Source: Gemmatimonadaceae bacterium
GTDB lineage: Bacteria; Gemmatimonadota; Gemmatimonadetes; Gemmatimonadales; Gemmatimonadaceae
Direction: 5' to 3'
Length of the DNA: 64,000 nucleotides
Assembly: GCA_025934775.1 (NCBI GenBank)
Contig: JAICWO010000003.1
Location: 124,001-188,000 of the forward strand
The number at the start of each line of letters is the position of its first letter. Position 1 is the first letter of the stretch. Under the pieces are notes generated by a model. It did no database searches, was not told the DNA's origin, and saw nothing but the letters and a program-made list of their open reading frames with translations. This document shows positions 17,590-30,266 of this stretch, one piece after another. The translations under genes and the position numbers were made by a program.

Positions 17590-18705
17590 CTACTTCGTCG
17601 CGGACAGCGGGCGCCGCGCGGCGGCGGCGACGCCGCTCACGGGGGTGGGCGTCTGCCATGCAAGCTCGTCGGCCGGCCCGCCGCCCTTGCGCGCTGTCGC
17701 GCTTTCAGTGCCTGCGCGCGAAACGAGGGCCGCGCCGAGTCCGAGCGTGGCCGCCACCCACGTCACAGCGATCGCGATCGCGCGCAGCACCGCGCCGGCG
17801 ACGGGCGCCGATTTGAACGCGGACGCCACCAGCCACAAGCCGAGATAGACGAGGAGTCCGGCAACGAGGGCGCGAAGATGAACATTTCGGGCGGACGCTG
17901 ATTCGCCGTCTCGCACGAACGCGCCGCCCGTGAGCCGCGCGACCGCGAGGAAGCCGAGCGTCACCAGCCCCGCCGCGGCGATCACGTACGCCACGATCGC
18001 GAATGGAATGAGCAGAATGCCGATGAGCGTGATCGCGAGCGCGACGACGATCACCAGCAGCAGCGGCAGCGCGAGGAGCTGGCCAGCCACGCCGATCCAG
18101 AAAGCGCGCGCGAAGCCTCGCTCGAGCGCGACCACGCCGCCGTCCAGGTTCGCCTCGGCGAACACCATGACGCCGATGCCGATGATGGCGAGCAACGCGA
18201 ACCACCCGATGACGAGCTTGATCGATTGCCACGTGGAGAGCGGTCGTGACGGGGCTGCAGACGCCGGCGCCAGCACAATTGGTGCGCCGGCGTTGATCGC
18301 GCGCCGCTCGCCCTCCACGACCCCGCCGTCGATGATCACGGAGCCGGCGGCCGACCACGCGTCGCCGGTCACGCGGGCGCCGCGGTGGACGCGGACGTCA
18401 CCGTCGACGACGAATACGCTGCCATTCACCGTGCCGAACACGTCGAGGTTGCCGCGCGCGATCGCGATCGGACCGGCAACGCTGGTGTTGGCTCGAATGG
18501 TCCGATCGCCGTATGTGAAATGATCGGCGGATGGGATTGTGCTGTCTCCGGCAGCGCGGCGCTGTGCGACCGCGGATGCGACCTTGCCGGTGTCGGCGCT
18601 TCCGGAAGATGCGGAGTCAGGCTTGTACTGCGGCGCCTGCGCGAGCGCGGGGGACCCACCGAGCGCCAGCGCGACGAGAGCGACGAGAGCGACGAGAGCG
18701 CGCAT
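17590..18705 (-). CDS. Exported bactofilin-like membrane protein
   Basis: 371 aa. A signal peptide containing three tandem Val-Ala-Leu units is followed by a short polymer-forming (bactofilin-like) beta segment at ~60-125 (IARGNLDVFGTVNGSVFVVD, VHRGARVTGDAWSAAGSVII). Four or five transmembrane helices occupy ~150-350. ATG 18705 is 2 bp after the anti-sigma stop. This pairing of a short beta-helix with a membrane domain is common behind ECF/anti-sigma pairs in GC-rich diderms and suggests an envelope stress effector; function not established. Confidence 0.75.
   Translation of the reverse strand: MRALVALVALVALALGGSPALAQAPQYKPDSASSGSADTGKVASAVAQRRAAGDSTIPSADHFTYGDRTIRANTSVAGPIAIARGNLDVFGTVNGSVFVVDGDVRVHRGARVTGDAWSAAGSVIIDGGVVEGERRAINAGAPIVLAPASAAPSRPLSTWQSIKLVIGWFALLAIIGIGVMVFAEANLDGGVVALERGFARAFWIGVAGQLLALPLLLVIVVALAITLIGILLIPFAIVAYVIAAAGLVTLGFLAVARLTGGAFVRDGESASARNVHLRALVAGLLVYLGLWLVASAFKSAPVAGAVLRAIAIAVTWVAATLGLGAALVSRAGTESATARKGGGPADELAWQTPTPVSGVAAAARRPLSATK
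18673..18699. repeat. Triplicated 9-mer inside a signal peptide
   Basis: GACGAGAGC occurs three times in perfect tandem (18673, 18682, 18691). On the coding minus strand it encodes repeated Leu-Val-Ala units of the bactofilin-like protein's signal peptide. Slippage here would lengthen or shorten the hydrophobic core without changing frame. Confidence 0.85.
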
Positions 18706-18707
18706 CG

Positions 18708-19301
18708 TTACGCCCGGCGACGGCTCGACGCGACGGCGAGGGCTCGAAGTCCGGCGATCGACGCCCCGGCCGCTGCGGCCAGGCCGATGAGCGCGGCCGT
18801 GATCCCGACTGTTCCCGTCCGCTCGATGATCGTGAACATCTGATCGCCGAAGACGGTCGACAGGACGGCCTGCCCTGCGTCGAACACCATGCTCCGAAGC
18901 TGATCGCCAGCCATCCCGGATGCGAGCACGACCGTATCGGTCTGCGTCGTGATCCAGAGAATCCCGATCGTGAGCACCGCGGCCACCGAGGTCGCGATGG
19001 CGCCGAAGGCCACTCGCGCTGGCCGCGACCGGGGCAGCCAGCGAGTGACGGCATCGCGGGCGGTCACGTGCCAGGGCACGAACACCGGCACCTGAGCCAT
19101 GACGGATTCGGCGAATCGATGCGACGGAGCAAAATGAGGGAGGTCTTCCAAGGCATCCACGACCGACCGGGCCTCGTCGACGCGCGCGCGGCAGTCGGCG
19201 CATTCGCGGAGATGGGACTTGAGCGGGGTTACACCAAACCCCACCTCGTCCTCGTCGAGGAGCAGGTCGATTTCATCTGGAAGCAGGTGCCTGTGATTCA
19301 T
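18708..19301 (-). CDS. Anti-sigma factor with a zinc-finger N-terminus
   Basis: 197 aa. The N-terminal HLRECADCRARV (H30, C34, C37) is the zinc-associated anti-sigma motif that holds an ECF sigma factor. A central transmembrane helix (~95-115) and a second hydrophobic stretch near the C-terminus (~165-185) place the rest at the membrane. Encoded 64 bp after the sigma gene and immediately before the bactofilin-like gene. It is the likely sensor that releases the sigma factor under envelope stress. Confidence 0.88.
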   Translation of the reverse strand: MNHRHLLPDEIDLLLDEDEVGFGVTPLKSHLRECADCRARVDEARSVVDALEDLPHFAPSHRFAESVMAQVPVFVPWHVTARDAVTRWLPRSRPARVAFGAIATSVAAVLTIGILWITTQTDTVVLASGMAGDQLRSMVFDAGQAVLSTVFGDQMFTIIERTGTVGITAALIGLAAAAGASIAGLRALAVASSRRRA

Positions 19302-24470: not shown

Positions 24471-24692
24471 TCAGATCACGCGAAAGTGCGAGATCGGGTA
24501 GAGGTAGTCTTCGCCCGAGTCGTCGATGATGCGATAGAACGACCCTTGGCCTTCCAGGCCGAGCATCTCGTAGATCTTGCCCAGCGTCAGGTCGTGGCAG
24601 CCGCCAGGCTCATCGCATCCGGGATACACGAGCCACGGACGCGTGCTGATGCACTGTACGAGGGTCGTCGGTTGCCAGGAGGTCGTTGCCAT
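24471..24692 (-). CDS. Small conserved hypothetical protein
   Basis: 73 aa starting at ATG 24692. The second half, LTLGKIYEMLG followed by FYRIIDDSGEDYLYPISHF, matches a recurrent small-protein pattern with a compact beta fold seen in phages and bacteria. CISTRPWLVYPGCDEPGGCH adds three Cys and a His, which could bind metal or form a disulfide. No function is known. It is convergent with the phosphoesterase and lies 101 bp after the UvrC-like gene. Confidence 0.65.
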   Translation of the reverse strand: MATTSWQPTTLVQCISTRPWLVYPGCDEPGGCHDLTLGKIYEMLGLEGQGSFYRIIDDSGEDYLYPISHFRVI

Positions 24693-24793: not shown

Positions 24794-25927
24794 TTACGAG
24801 GCCGCGTCCAGCGCGGCCGGCGTCCCGGATGCGCTCGTGCGGTCGAGCTCTTCGGGAAAGCGACGGAACCAGGACGAGAGCAGCAGGAGTTCGTCGATCT
24901 CGTGCGTGGGGATCTGTCCGTTCGTGTGCTGCGCAGGCGTGTAGACGTCGTCGATGAGCCCCAACAGGTGCACGGCCTCGGCCGGAGTCCTGGGCAGCGA
25001 ACGTTCGGCGCGCACGCACCCGCGCCGAATGAGATACACGCGATCGTCGCCGTCGAAACCTGGAACCGTGTACACGAACGACAGCGTCTCGACCGCGAAT
25101 CGTAGTCTGGCGAACTGTGCGCGGAGCGCCTCGAGCCGCTTCAGCTTGTCGCGGAGCACCGCGGCGCGCTCGAACTCGAGCCGTTCGCTCGCCTGCTCCA
25201 TCTCGCGGCGGAGCCGTTCCATCGGGCCGTCGTCGATCCCATCGAGAAAGGCGCGCGCCATCGTGAGGCGTTCGTCGTACTGCTCCGCGGTGCACCCGCC
25301 GACGCACGGGCCGAGACACTTCTTCACCTCGAACCGGATGCAGCCCGGCGTCCGCGGAAAGATCTCGAACAGCTCGGGCTGATCGGCGAAGTGCATGCGC
25401 TGATCGTTGGCGCAGTCGCGCAATCCGAGCACGTCGTTCAACTCGCGCACCGCCTCGCTCACGCTCAGCGCGCCGAGGAAGGGGCCGTAGTAGGCGGACG
25501 AGTCATCGTGGCCCGCGCCGCGCACCACGACGAACTTGGGCGCCGGACCTTTCGTGAGCTTGAGGAAACAATAATTGCGCGCGTCGCGCTTCATCGCCAC
25601 GTTGAATCGCGGCCGAAACCGCTTGATGAGGCGAAGCTCCTCAAGCAGTGCCGCGAACTCGCTCGGCACGTACTCCCACTCGATGCACTCGGCGTCGCGA
25701 AGGATACGCGCGCCTTTCTCCTCTGGGAACGCGGCGCGGAAGTAGCTCAGCAGCCGCGTCCGCACACGCTTCGATTTGCCGACGTACACGATCTCGCCGT
25801 CGGCCGAGATCATGCGATAGACGCCCGGCCGGTCCGTCGCGTGATCGCGCACGTGCTTGCGCATCGCGGCGAGCTGCTCGTCGGACGTCGGCGGCCGGAG
25901 GAGCTTCAGCTTTGACAGCGCGCGCAT
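24794..25927 (-). CDS. Half-length UvrC: GIY-YIG nuclease with Fe-S cysteines and UVR motif
   Basis: 377 aa. GIY-YIG spans ~33-110 (RPGVYRMISADGEIVYVG). The UvrC cysteine set follows (C172, CIRFEVKKC at 196/204, C208), then a UVR (UvrB-binding) segment around 240-265. The RNase H-like nuclease and helix-hairpin-helix domains that complete full UvrC (~600 aa) are missing. Such a protein could make only the 3' incision, as Cho does, though Cho has a different C-terminus. ATG 25927 overlaps the mutM end by 22 bp, so the two repair genes are co-expressed. Confidence 0.85.
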   Translation of the reverse strand: MRALSKLKLLRPPTSDEQLAAMRKHVRDHATDRPGVYRMISADGEIVYVGKSKRVRTRLLSYFRAAFPEEKGARILRDAECIEWEYVPSEFAALLEELRLIKRFRPRFNVAMKRDARNYCFLKLTKGPAPKFVVVRGAGHDDSSAYYGPFLGALSVSEAVRELNDVLGLRDCANDQRMHFADQPELFEIFPRTPGCIRFEVKKCLGPCVGGCTAEQYDERLTMARAFLDGIDDGPMERLRREMEQASERLEFERAAVLRDKLKRLEALRAQFARLRFAVETLSFVYTVPGFDGDDRVYLIRRGCVRAERSLPRTPAEAVHLLGLIDDVYTPAQHTNGQIPTHEIDELLLLSSWFRRFPEELDRTSASGTPAALDAAS

Positions 25928-26733
25928 AGCACCGTGGCTCGTCCGTCGACCGCGTGCGTGCCGACGAGCCGGCGGCCGCAGCGTGGGCACGCATCTCCTT
26001 CGCGTCCGTAGACCGCGAGCCGCTCGACGAATCCGCCGCGTCCGCCGTGGGCGTCGCGATAGTCGCGGAAGCTCGTGCCACGCAGCGCGATCGACTCCTC
26101 GAGCACGCCGACGATGGCATCGCGCAGTACGCCGGCTCGTTCCGGCGCGATCGTGCGTGCTTCACGCGACGGATCGATGCCGGCGCGCCAGAGCGCCTCG
26201 TTCGCGTAGATGTTGCCGATGCCGGCGATCGCGCGCTGGTCCATCAAGACCTTCTTGACTGCTTGGCGAGAGGAGCGGAGGACCGCCGATAAATGCTCCG
26301 CGGTAAACGACGGGTCAAGTGGCTCGGTCCCGAGATGCGCGGTGTATTCGCCAAACCGCTCGGCCGACATCAGCGCGACGGTGCCGAGTCGACGGATGTC
26401 GCGGTAATGAAGCGTGCGGCCGTCGTCGAGGAGGAACGCGATGGTCGAATAACGAAGCTCGCTCTCGGGCAGTTGGCCGGCATCGACGAGCAGTGCGCCG
26501 GTGAACCGGGGCTGCACCACCAGGTGATCGCGCGTGGAGAGGTCCAGAATCACGAGCTTGGCGCGGCGCCAGGATCGCTCGATTGTCGCGCCCGTCGTAC
26601 GACGCGCGAGCTCACGCGGCGAAACTTCGCGCAGTACGTCGGGACGATGAATGTGCGTCTCGAGGATGCGTTGCCCGCGAATCGCGCGATCGAGATCCCG
26701 GGCGATCGTCTCGGTCTCGGGGAGCTCCGGCAT
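25906..26733 (-). CDS. mutM: Formamidopyrimidine-DNA glycosylase
   Basis: 275 aa. The start MPELPETE supplies catalytic Pro2 and Glu3. AIAGIGNIYANEALWRAGI is the helix-two-turn-helix, and the C-terminal zinc finger reads CPRCG ... CARCQS (four Cys). It excises 8-oxoguanine and Fapy lesions and nicks the abasic site. Located 34 bp after purD and overlapping the UvrC-like gene. Confidence 0.96.
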   Translation of the reverse strand: MPELPETETIARDLDRAIRGQRILETHIHRPDVLREVSPRELARRTTGATIERSWRRAKLVILDLSTRDHLVVQPRFTGALLVDAGQLPESELRYSTIAFLLDDGRTLHYRDIRRLGTVALMSAERFGEYTAHLGTEPLDPSFTAEHLSAVLRSSRQAVKKVLMDQRAIAGIGNIYANEALWRAGIDPSREARTIAPERAGVLRDAIVGVLEESIALRGTSFRDYRDAHGGRGGFVERLAVYGREGDACPRCGRRLVGTHAVDGRATVLCARCQS

Positions 26734-26767: not shown

Positions 26768-28057
26768 TCAGGTCGCGCGGCGCGCGAGCTCTCGCCAACC
26801 GATGTCCCGGCGGAGCTGCTTGCCGTCGAACGCCACGGCCTCGGCGAACGAGCGGCTGCGTTCGGCGGCAATGTCGAGCGATGATCCCACGCCCGTGACG
26901 GCAAGCACGCGCCCGCCCGCGGTGACGAGCGTCCCATTCACGTCCCGCTTGGTTCCCGCGTGAAAGACGAGGACGTCCTCGCTGGCCCGCGGCAGATCGA
27001 TGCGGTCTCCCGTGCGCGGGTGCTCGGGATATCCCGCCGACGCGAGCACCGTTGTCACCGCCGCGCGCGACAGCTCGAGCTGCACGGATTCGTCGAGCGC
27101 GCCGTCGCGCGCAACGGCTTCCATGAGATCTGTGAGTGGCGCGCTCGGATCGATTGCGGGGAGCACCGCTTCGGTCTCCGGATCGCCAAACCGGCAATTG
27201 AACTCCACCACTTTGGGTCCGTCGACCGTGAGCATGAGGCCCGCGTAGAGCAGACCGGCGAACGGCGTGCCGCGCGCATGCATCGCGGCGAGCGTGGGAC
27301 GAACGATACGATCGAGAACCGTGCTCACGAGCGTCGGATCGTCCCCCACGAGCGAGACCGGGCAGTACGCGCCCATTCCGCCGGTGTTCGGCCCTTGGTC
27401 GCCGTCGCGGAGACGCTTGTGATCTTGTGCGGCGGGGAGCGCGACGACGCGTTCGCCGTCCGTGAGCACGAACAGCGACAACTCCTCGCCCTCCATGAAC
27501 TCCTCGATCAGCACCGTGTCGCCGGCGGCGCCGAACGCGTGCGCGTCGAGCATCGCGCGCGCCGCATCACGTGCTTCCTCGGCGGTCTGGCACACGATCA
27601 CGCCCTTTCCCGCGGCAAGTCCGGATGCCTTCACCACGACCGGCGCGCCGAGCGCGTCGATCGCGCGGAGCGATTCCTCGTAGCTCGCGCAGGTCCAGGC
27701 ACGCGCCGTCGGCACGCCGGCGCCGAGCATGAGAGATTTGGTAAAGGCCTTGGATGTCTCGAGCATCGCGGCGGCCGCGGTCGGCCCGAAGATGGGCTGG
27801 CCTGCCGCGCGAAACGCGTCGGCGACGCCGGCGGCGAGCGGCGCCTCGGGGCCGACGAGCGTCCAGTCCACTCGCTCCTGTCGCGCGAGCTCGAGCAGCG
27901 CCGCCACGTCGGTCGCGCCGACTGGCACGCAGCGAGCCAACTCGGCGATTCCCGGATTCCCGGGTGCCGCGATGATCTCGAGTGAAGGATTGTCTTGCCG
28001 CAGGCGCCAGGCGAGCGCGTGTTCGCGTCCGCCGCCGCCAACGAGCAGAACCCTCAT
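26768..28057 (-). CDS. purD: Phosphoribosylamine-glycine ligase
   Basis: 429 aa. MRVLLVGGGGREHALAWRL starts the N-terminal domain; the ATP-grasp core shows KASGLAAGKGVIVC and the DHKRLRDGDQGPNTGGMGAY signature, and EFNCRFGDPETEAVLP binds Mg and ATP. It catalyses step two of purine synthesis. Its ATG overlaps the M48 stop (ATGA). Confidence 0.97.
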   Translation of the reverse strand: MRVLLVGGGGREHALAWRLRQDNPSLEIIAAPGNPGIAELARCVPVGATDVAALLELARQERVDWTLVGPEAPLAAGVADAFRAAGQPIFGPTAAAAMLETSKAFTKSLMLGAGVPTARAWTCASYEESLRAIDALGAPVVVKASGLAAGKGVIVCQTAEEARDAARAMLDAHAFGAAGDTVLIEEFMEGEELSLFVLTDGERVVALPAAQDHKRLRDGDQGPNTGGMGAYCPVSLVGDDPTLVSTVLDRIVRPTLAAMHARGTPFAGLLYAGLMLTVDGPKVVEFNCRFGDPETEAVLPAIDPSAPLTDLMEAVARDGALDESVQLELSRAAVTTVLASAGYPEHPRTGDRIDLPRASEDVLVFHAGTKRDVNGTLVTAGGRVLAVTGVGSSLDIAAERSRSFAEAVAFDGKQLRRDIGWRELARRAT

Positions 28058-29028
28058 CGATTACGCCACGCCGATGTCACGGCGTCTTTCGCGCTCTTCA
28101 GGCCTTCCTTGACCGTGTCGACCGTCTCGCGCGTCTTCTGCCCGTAGTAGCCGGCGGCGTCGACAAAGTCCTCCGAGAGCGGCTGGTCCTTGTCGCCCTG
28201 TCCACGACGCAGGTAGTTGCCCGCGAGAATCTGGTCATACCCGCCGCCGCGCTGCCACCGCAGCAGCTCGGCCGCTCGCACCGTGTGCATGGGGTGTGTG
28301 CGCATCACGGTATTGAGGATCTTCATCACCGTGTCCCACGCATCGCCGCCCGTCTCGTACTGCTCCGCCTGACGAATGAACTCCTCCACACGGAGCTGAT
28401 CCCCGTACTCCTTTCCGCCGGCGAGCTTCATCTCCGTGCTCATCACGATGTTCAGATCCTGCGTCGCGAGGAGCCCCGCGCGATCGGACGAGAACTCACT
28501 CTTCCGGTGCCACTCCAGCAGCGCGAGCTGGAACGGCAGGATCGCCGCCGCCGCGAGGAACGGGAGGTTCCCAACACCGAAGTAGAGCAGAATGATCGCG
28601 ATCGTCGTGTACGTCGGGTGGCCGCTCATGATGTGCCCGAGCTCGTGCCCGAGCACGCTCCGCAGCTCTTCGTCGTCGAGTATCTCGAGCATTCCCGAAT
28701 GCACGACCACGAATGGCTTGTCGAAGCCCACCGCCATCGCGTTCGCGATCGGTGTCTGTGTCACGTAGAGCTCCGGCCGCTCGGGCCAGTCCAGCGTCTC
28801 GAGCACCTCGGTCCACAGCACATTCATTTTCGGACGCTGGCTCGCCGTGACCTTGACCGAGTCGCCGAGAAAGAGCTGCCGGATTCCACGCTCGCCAAAG
28901 AAGCCGGCAACTTTGCGGACGACTTCATCGAAGCCCGGGATCGCGCGCAGCGTGTTGAGCGCCGCGCGATCGGCCGGGTGCTCCCAGGCGCGCGACGAAA
29001 TCTGAACGAGCGGAACGCGAGCGGGCAT
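28054..29028 (-). CDS. M48-family metallopeptidase
   Basis: 324 aa. GHELGHIMSGH near residue 130 is the zinc HExxH motif, and EFSSDRAGLLATQD near 180 supplies the third ligand. A hydrophobic stretch (~140-165) could insert in the membrane, as in HtpX-type proteases. The C-terminal third is helical and charged. Overlaps metB by one base and purD by four. Possibly a membrane quality-control protease; substrate unknown. Confidence 0.9.
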   Translation of the reverse strand: MPARVPLVQISSRAWEHPADRAALNTLRAIPGFDEVVRKVAGFFGERGIRQLFLGDSVKVTASQRPKMNVLWTEVLETLDWPERPELYVTQTPIANAMAVGFDKPFVVVHSGMLEILDDEELRSVLGHELGHIMSGHPTYTTIAIILLYFGVGNLPFLAAAAILPFQLALLEWHRKSEFSSDRAGLLATQDLNIVMSTEMKLAGGKEYGDQLRVEEFIRQAEQYETGGDAWDTVMKILNTVMRTHPMHTVRAAELLRWQRGGGYDQILAGNYLRRGQGDKDQPLSEDFVDAAGYYGQKTRETVDTVKEGLKSAKDAVTSAWRNR

Positions 29029-30266
29029 TACGGCGCCGCGGAGCCGATGGTGTCGCGACTCCGTTCCGCGCGGCCGGCGCCGCGCTTTTCGTTCGCCGGA
29101 ATGCCCGCGAACGCCTGCTCGAGATCGGCGAGCAGATCGCCGACGTCCTCCACGCCGCAGGACAGTCGAATGAGCCCGGGCGTGATGCCCAGCGCCGCGC
29201 GTCGGTCGGGCGGCACGGAGGCGTGCGTCATTTCCGCAGGTTGGCTGATCAGCGATTCCACGCCGCCGAGCGACTCGGCGAGCGAGAAGACGCGGACTCG
29301 GCCGAGCACGTGCGCCGCGCGCTCGCGGGTGCCCAGCTCCACGCTGATCATCCCGCCGAAGCCGCTCATCTGGCGCCGCGCGAGCTCGTGCTGCGGGTGC
29401 GTCGGCAGGCCGACGTAATACACGTTCTCATATCCGACCTGCTCGACCAGCCACTTGGCGATGTCGCGGCCGTTCGCGTCGTGCTGCCGCATGCGGAGGT
29501 GCAGCGTCTTGGTGCCGCGAAGCGCGAGCCACGCGTCGAACGGGCCCGCGACGGCCCCCGCCGCGTTGTGAATGAACTGTAAACGCTCCGCGATGCCGTC
29601 GTCGCGGCATACGGCGCACCCGCCGATCATGTCGCTGTGCCCGTTCAGGTACTTGGTCGTCGAGTGGAAGACGATGTCCGCGCCGAGGTCGAGCGGACGC
29701 TGGAAGTATGGTGACGCGAAGGTGTTGTCGACGATCAGGAGCGCGCCGCGCCGGCGCGCGATGTCGGCGACGGCCGCGATATCGGTGAGGCGCATGAGCG
29801 GGTTGCTCGGCGTCTCGACGATGATCGCCCGCGTCTCCGGGGTCATGGCATCCGCGACACGCTGCGGGTCGCGCGTGTCGACGTAGCTGAACGAGAGTCC
29901 GAGATGACTGAGCAGCTTGTCGAAGAGGCGGAAGGTGCCCCCATAGACATTTTCCGCGCAGACGATATGATCGCCTGCACGGAACAGCTTCATGATCGAA
30001 TCCAGGCAGCCCATGCCGCTGGAGAACGCGAACCCATGACGGCCATTCTCGAGCGTGGCGACGTTCCGCTCGAACGCTTCCCGGGTCGGGTTTTTACCGC
30101 GAGCGTACTCGTAGCCTTTGTTCTGCCCGAGGCCGTCCTGGACGTACGTGGACGTCAGGTAGACCGGCGTCATGATCGCGCCGGCGAGCGGCTCGGGGCG
30201 TTGGCCGGCGTGAATGGCCTTGGTGCCGAAACCGGCGGCAAGGTCCTCGTCAAAAACGCGCGTCAT
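29028..30266 (-). CDS. metB: Cystathionine gamma-synthase/lyase-type PLP enzyme
   Basis: 412 aa of the Cys/Met metabolism PLP family. FGTKAIHAGQRPEPLAGAIM at the start, VETPSNPLMRLTDI, DNTFASPYFQRPLDLGADIV and the PLP lysine in HSTTKYLNGHSD are all present. It acts in transsulfuration between homoserine esters, cysteine and methionine; synthase versus lyase cannot be separated from sequence alone. First gene of the leftward metB-M48-purD run and divergent from the response regulator gene. Confidence 0.88.
   Translation of the reverse strand: MTRVFDEDLAAGFGTKAIHAGQRPEPLAGAIMTPVYLTSTYVQDGLGQNKGYEYARGKNPTREAFERNVATLENGRHGFAFSSGMGCLDSIMKLFRAGDHIVCAENVYGGTFRLFDKLLSHLGLSFSYVDTRDPQRVADAMTPETRAIIVETPSNPLMRLTDIAAVADIARRRGALLIVDNTFASPYFQRPLDLGADIVFHSTTKYLNGHSDMIGGCAVCRDDGIAERLQFIHNAAGAVAGPFDAWLALRGTKTLHLRMRQHDANGRDIAKWLVEQVGYENVYYVGLPTHPQHELARRQMSGFGGMISVELGTRERAAHVLGRVRVFSLAESLGGVESLISQPAEMTHASVPPDRRAALGITPGLIRLSCGVEDVGDLLADLEQAFAGIPANEKRGAGRAERSRDTIGSAAP

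Follow-up and report, generated by a model that had tools for sequence, protein, structure and literature searches.

The stretch of DNA analysed here (the window, 64,000 nucleotides from a Gemmatimonadaceae bacterium) contains a gene overlapping mutM that was first read as a UvrC reduced to its N-terminal half, and as a possible dedicated 3'-incision enzyme coupled to the repair of oxidised bases. Such an enzyme would depart from standard excision repair. The locus raises the question of whether this protein is a shortened UvrC at all and, if it is not, what it does beside mutM and beside the excision repair genes of the same genome.

A short GIY-YIG protein with a UVR motif

The open frame runs from 24794 to 25990 on the minus strand (398 aa). 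We chose as start the ATG at 25927, at or near which relatives also have a start codon; the resulting protein of 377 aa consists of the following parts:

24794..25927, minus strand: Cho-like gene, encoding GIY-YIG, four cysteines, UVR and a short C-terminal module, 377 aa
25595..25876, minus strand: GIY-YIG nuclease domain, residues 18-111, from a structural match and invariant catalytic-position residues
25304..25414, minus strand: four-cysteine (putative Fe-S) segment with C172, C196, C204 and C208, aligned to the UvrC cysteines
25127..25219, minus strand: UVR motif of the UvrB-interacting type, residues 237-267, from PF02151 and a UvrB structure match
24857..25081, minus strand: post-UVR C-terminal module of three strands followed by helices, from an AlphaFold2 model and a profile alignment

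GIY-YIG (PF01541, 32.9 bits against a cut-off of 22.6) and UVR (PF02151, 42.5 bits against 21.5) are the only Pfam domains over cut-off, the other two listed matches being below theirs, and among the matches listed up to E 1 none is to RNase H or helix-hairpin-helix (HhH). In a profile alignment, for which 44 of the 47 rows on the Cho-like side were kept by the program and UvrC is numbered as in the trimmed copy used, residues 29-357 pair with residues 12-335 of E. coli UvrC (E 8e-54). This covers the GIY-YIG, cysteine and UVR segments, extends into the first part of what follows UVR, and places the four cysteines on those of UvrC, a protein that carries an Fe-S cluster. The alignment stops at UvrC residue 335, and the Cho-like protein ends soon after. 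The domain reading in the original prediction thus holds, both for what it saw as present (nuclease, UvrC-type cysteines, UVR) and for what it saw as missing (RNase H and HhH). The ~95 residues after UVR align to the start of the UvrC post-UVR region within the full-length profile hit, while the module aligned alone gives a weak match to UvrC (E 0.0022, probability 13%).

The AlphaFold2 model (mean pLDDT 85.4) agrees with this assignment in its two recognizable domains. Its GIY-YIG domain matches the N-terminal domain of T. maritima UvrC (VIA-align Z 15.9, rmsd 1.5-1.6 over 89-90 residues), with phage, homing and restriction nucleases resembled at lower Z, and the UVR part matches the UVR chain of UvrB, 2d7d_B (Z 5.6, 43% identity over 37 residues). 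The whole-model search, whose listed rows cover the GIY-YIG and UVR parts, gave no clear PDB match for the C-terminal module.

The gene is also intact. Catalytic positions were mapped from an alignment to T. maritima UvrC, with Y19, Y29, Y43 and N88 taken from PDB titles and K32, R39 and E76 presumably catalytic-position residues as well. Alignment A2, which took in 46 of the 80 named loci, shows no variation among its 47 sequences at Y37, Y48, K51, R58, Y62, E97 and N109 of the Cho-like protein or at its four cysteines, and in alignment A1 the same positions are conserved in 20 of 20 sequences except for K51 (19/20); the divergent copies of family f7 lie outside both alignments. Against three relatives the gene has dN of 0.12-0.14, dS of 0.64-0.94 and dN/dS of 0.13-0.19, and is in these comparisons under purifying selection. 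A broken or frameshifted gene is ruled out by the low dN/dS, the invariant residues and a frame that is open in most listed relatives. In G009 and G014, two of the relatives, a single stop codon interrupts the matched region.

An architecture of this kind has been described before. The portion of PMC1564403 available to us defines, in 2006, a 'Cho-like' subfamily (C4-UvrBb) with one member at that time, from Gloeobacter violaceus, and a Cho-like+Exo subfamily of 11, from Actinobacteria. The window protein has every feature listed for the Cho-like subfamily in that portion: the order GIY-YIG, four cysteines, UVR, and the lack of an N-terminal exonuclease, of EndoV/RNase H and of HhH. The likeness to the G. 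violaceus protein is one of described architecture. The architecture of the window protein is accordingly not new. What differs from the 2006 subfamily is that the present proteins are widespread in Gemmatimonadota and, in Gemmatimonadaceae and their kin, usually follow mutM. In the literature covered, which was partial, we found no report of a Gemmatimonadota Cho-like protein and no paper treating Rv2191 together with UvrC.

Other known families are less close. Of the NCBIfam models, the one for the Cho-like+Exo family (PRK07883, DEDD exonuclease domain-containing protein) matches best; the match takes in residues 35-384 of the 398-aa frame, but at 180.5 bits it falls far below the cut-off of 495, and the window protein has no N-terminal exonuclease. 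With E. coli Cho it shares GIY-YIG, the cysteine segment, the absence of a 5'-incision half and the side of the protein tree on which it falls; Cho, however, is described in the available part of PMC1564403 as having no UVR and a different C-terminal domain, and the window protein scores 74.7 against a cut-off of 367 for the NCBIfam Cho model. It is like UvrC over the aligned residues, and unlike it in lacking the RNase H-like 5'-incision domain and HhH.

A lineage beside UvrC

A full-length uvrC, for which the original prediction had suggested searching the complete genome, lies on another contig (G000:C16:29343), with an open frame of 648 aa, or 636 aa from its ATG. The genome is 99.29% complete and has one UvrB gene and two UvrA genes over cut-off. 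The second full-length UvrA is on the window's own contig (G000:C6:279547-282300, minus strand) and scores 1133.9 bits, as compared to 1422.1 bits for the UvrA on contig C12.

In a protein tree of 54 hand-picked rows, a branch with support 100/99 parts 16 UvrCs from the 38 others, which comprise the window protein, 34 further Cho-like proteins, E. coli Cho and two actinobacterial fusions. The Cho-like protein is a lineage separate from orthodox UvrC and not, as had been supposed, a UvrC cut down to half. A replacement of UvrC is ruled out by the separate 636-aa protein that the genome keeps, and a recent truncated duplicate of UvrC by the tree, and the idea of a reduced excision repair in this genome is corrected accordingly. 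Within the non-UvrC side, E. coli Cho sits on a very long end branch (2.04) and we are unsure of its exact place. Support of only 96/78 unites the fusions with the divergent f7 copies; if that grouping is right, 'Cho-like' as labelled here is not one clade.

Distribution and apparent transfer

The nearest named relatives of the window protein are from Gemmatimonadaceae. The gene is present in 52 of 59 related genomes, the window's own included, and absent from G031 (74% complete) and from six genomes of family f2. Among 150 genomes of the phylum Gemmatimonadota, each at least 90% complete, 119 have it, so that a subfamily of a single protein in 2006 now extends to most sampled members of a phylum, is under purifying selection where tested and has apparently been transferred into myxobacteria. 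Presence was scored at a best E of at most 1e-60 or, for f7, by a second weak match on a frame of 379-408 aa; f7 presence was verified in five genomes (G073, G082, G142, G147, G167) and assumed for G075, G080, G086, G097 and G166, which have two matches and a genus common to two of the verified genomes. The gene is patchy in parts of the phylum, and because 31 of the 150 genomes do without it, its role is dispensable. Some genomes have additional or divergent copies, 40-45% identical to the window protein:

Loci L033, L034, L035, L036, L037, L038, L039 and L040: additional or divergent Cho-like copies of G013, G019, G020, G026 and G028

Four myxobacterial loci (L120, L138, L141, L146) also carry the gene. 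Three of these copies fall among Gemmatimonadaceae copies on the protein tree (93/92, not starred); the fourth, from Archangium, forms a pair with an f4 copy (100/98). This placement among Gemmatimonadota copies suggests that there were at least two transfers of the gene into myxobacteria. Among 114 genomes of the phylum to which the Sorangium genome belongs, there was no Cho-like-level match beyond the query genome itself: in 107 others, the scores of the matches (at most 118.6 bits) and the lengths of their frames look like those of UvrC, and six gave no match at E 1e-20.

Linkage to mutM

Upstream of the Cho-like gene, and in the same direction, lie four genes:

25906..26733, minus strand: mutM (Fpg), NCBIfam PRK01103, 249.5 bits against a cut-off of 212
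26768..28057, minus strand: purD, in a conserved block with mutM and the Cho-like gene
28054..29028, minus strand: M48-family peptidase, same block
29028..30266, minus strand: Cys/Met metabolism PLP enzyme, same block

With mutM ending at 25906 and the Cho-like gene starting at 25927, the overlap that had drawn attention to this locus is real and measures 22 bp. Directly upstream (up to 210 bp), mutM is found in 72 of the 80 named loci, often overlapping the Cho-like gene; in three it is 1.3-2.1 kb upstream, and one locus begins at a contig end. Families f1, f2 and f3 show this linkage, as do loci of f4 and f6. It does not extend everywhere, for the Cho-like gene is far from mutM in five of five single-contig f5 genomes (G065, G084, G094, G095, G100) and in single-contig G147 of f7, and at none of the four myxobacterial loci is there a mutM on either strand within ~5 kb upstream. 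Sixty-three named loci have the linkage and at least 1.4 kb of DNA upstream of mutM; in 60 of them purD is no more than 400 bp from mutM. Matches to mutM occur in 147 of the 150 phylum genomes and in 29 of the 31 that have no Cho-like gene, counting as present the weak matches in G137 (4.9e-23) and G053 (4.6e-17). At all 11 Cho-minus f2 loci read (11 of 12 such genomes, G053 left out), M48, purD and mutM are in place without the Cho-like gene, and no remnant of it was detected at E of 1 or less in the 0.5-3.8 kb downstream of mutM.

The gene block is therefore genuinely conserved, but as a sign of a joint pathway it is weak, since purD is nearly as constant a neighbor, the single-contig f5 and f7 genomes have the two genes apart, and mutM is kept where the Cho-like gene is not. 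Most likely the overlap reflects expression in a shared housekeeping operon. In some relatives, long frames extend upstream of the Cho-like hit (up to 389 aa before it); a fused exonuclease was considered for these but is improbable, as the frames overlie the mutM coding region. Just downstream of the Cho-like gene, a short convergent frame of 73 aa (24471-24692, minus strand), inside a longer frame, may be a small real protein. Elsewhere in the window, a 537-aa frame (17590-19203, minus strand) with weak codon-position bias and no Pfam match up to E 1e-5 may be spurious.

A candidate function

E. coli Cho makes 3' incisions only, as given in the available portions of PMC1564403 and PMC518961, and the 3' incision of UvrC is assigned to its N-terminal GIY-YIG domain in the available portion of PMC7835731. 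We hypothesize that the Cho-like protein is a GIY-YIG endonuclease, of a lineage beside UvrC, that serves as an auxiliary UvrAB-dependent 3'-incision nuclease and probably works like E. coli Cho, a reading that we find likely, if not strongly so. Its UVR hairpin would anchor the protein to the UvrB-DNA pre-incision complex, where it would nick 3' near lesions that the N-terminal domain of UvrC itself cuts poorly; removal of the lesion would then be completed by full-length UvrC or by a nuclease that starts at the nick. By analogy with Cho and UvrC, we infer 3'-only incision, UvrB docking, Fe-S binding and the helper role; docking is not carried over from E. coli Cho, because what is available of PMC1564403 gives Cho neither a UVR nor the same C-terminal domain. 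The many natural proteins that combine a 3'-incision domain with UVR, and have no 5' half, would offer material on separate, UvrB-docked 3' incision.

We regard as very unlikely a coupling of the protein, as a dedicated nuclease, to the repair of oxidised bases initiated by MutM. This coupling was proposed from gene position, and the frequent adjacency and overlap with mutM across several families would suit it, but purD has the same linkage, the f5, f7 and myxobacterial genes stand apart from mutM, nearly all genomes without the Cho-like gene retain mutM, and the lyase of MutM already nicks DNA during base excision. Just as improbable is the cutting of branched or recombination DNA independently of UvrB, in the manner of other GIY-YIG junction nucleases. 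The lower-Z resemblances to phage, homing and restriction nucleases and the dispensable, patchy nature of the gene are compatible with such a role; the retention of the UvrC cysteine segment and the UVR motif nonetheless points to the UvrB pathway. A further possibility, unlikely in our estimation, involves another gene of the same genome:

L177:4656-5552, minus strand: stand-alone DEDD exonuclease, 298 aa, on contig C19 of G000, a different contig from that of the Cho-like gene

Here the Cho-like protein would nick and the exonuclease degrade from the nick. The pair would be the actinobacterial fusion divided over two genes, and would offer an alternative way of excision. The NCBIfam fusion model gives three hits in the window's genome, each to a gene of its own: UvrC, the Cho-like gene and the DEDD exonuclease. 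The best NCBIfam match of the exonuclease is the N-terminal part of this fusion family (200.5 bits; DinG 170.3, PolC 139.2), and that of the Cho-like protein is the remainder; in fusions from Nonomuraea and Tsukamurella, read by eye, the exonuclease is followed by the GIY-YIG part. The exonuclease is matched in 134 of 150 phylum genomes, in some over the exonuclease part only; 116 of 119 genomes that have the Cho-like gene contain it, versus 18 of 31 that do not, the other 13 having none (Fisher p 4e-8; absence taken as a best E above 1e-15, fragmentary genes in G061 and G118 counted as present, state lists and Fisher counts entered by hand). Against this, an unrelated control, the M48 gene, also tracks the Cho-like gene (107/119 versus 18/31, Fisher p 1e-4, with absence in five genomes inferred by elimination). 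In independent pairs differing in the Cho-like gene on a mutM tree of 92 of the 150 genomes, the exonuclease agrees in 4.7 of 8 on average (median p 0.0625), with opposite states in 2 of 200 pairings, once each, and the control in 3.6 of 8 (median p 0.125). The exonuclease thus usually co-occurs with the Cho-like gene, but not clearly in excess of the control, and we do not accept co-loss as proof of a pair, given that, with relatedness taken into account, the M48 control gives a similar picture. Three genomes have the Cho-like gene without the exonuclease and 18 the reverse, the two genes are on different contigs here, and in all four myxobacterial Cho-like genomes the exonuclease hits are weaker, none above 111.2 bits. 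Less probable again is the fuller claim that such a split fusion, with a Cho-like nick at the lesion and exonucleolytic removal, would amount in Gemmatimonadota to an excision pathway without the 5' incision of UvrC. The DEDD exonuclease has in addition an extra N-terminal stretch of ~85 residues.
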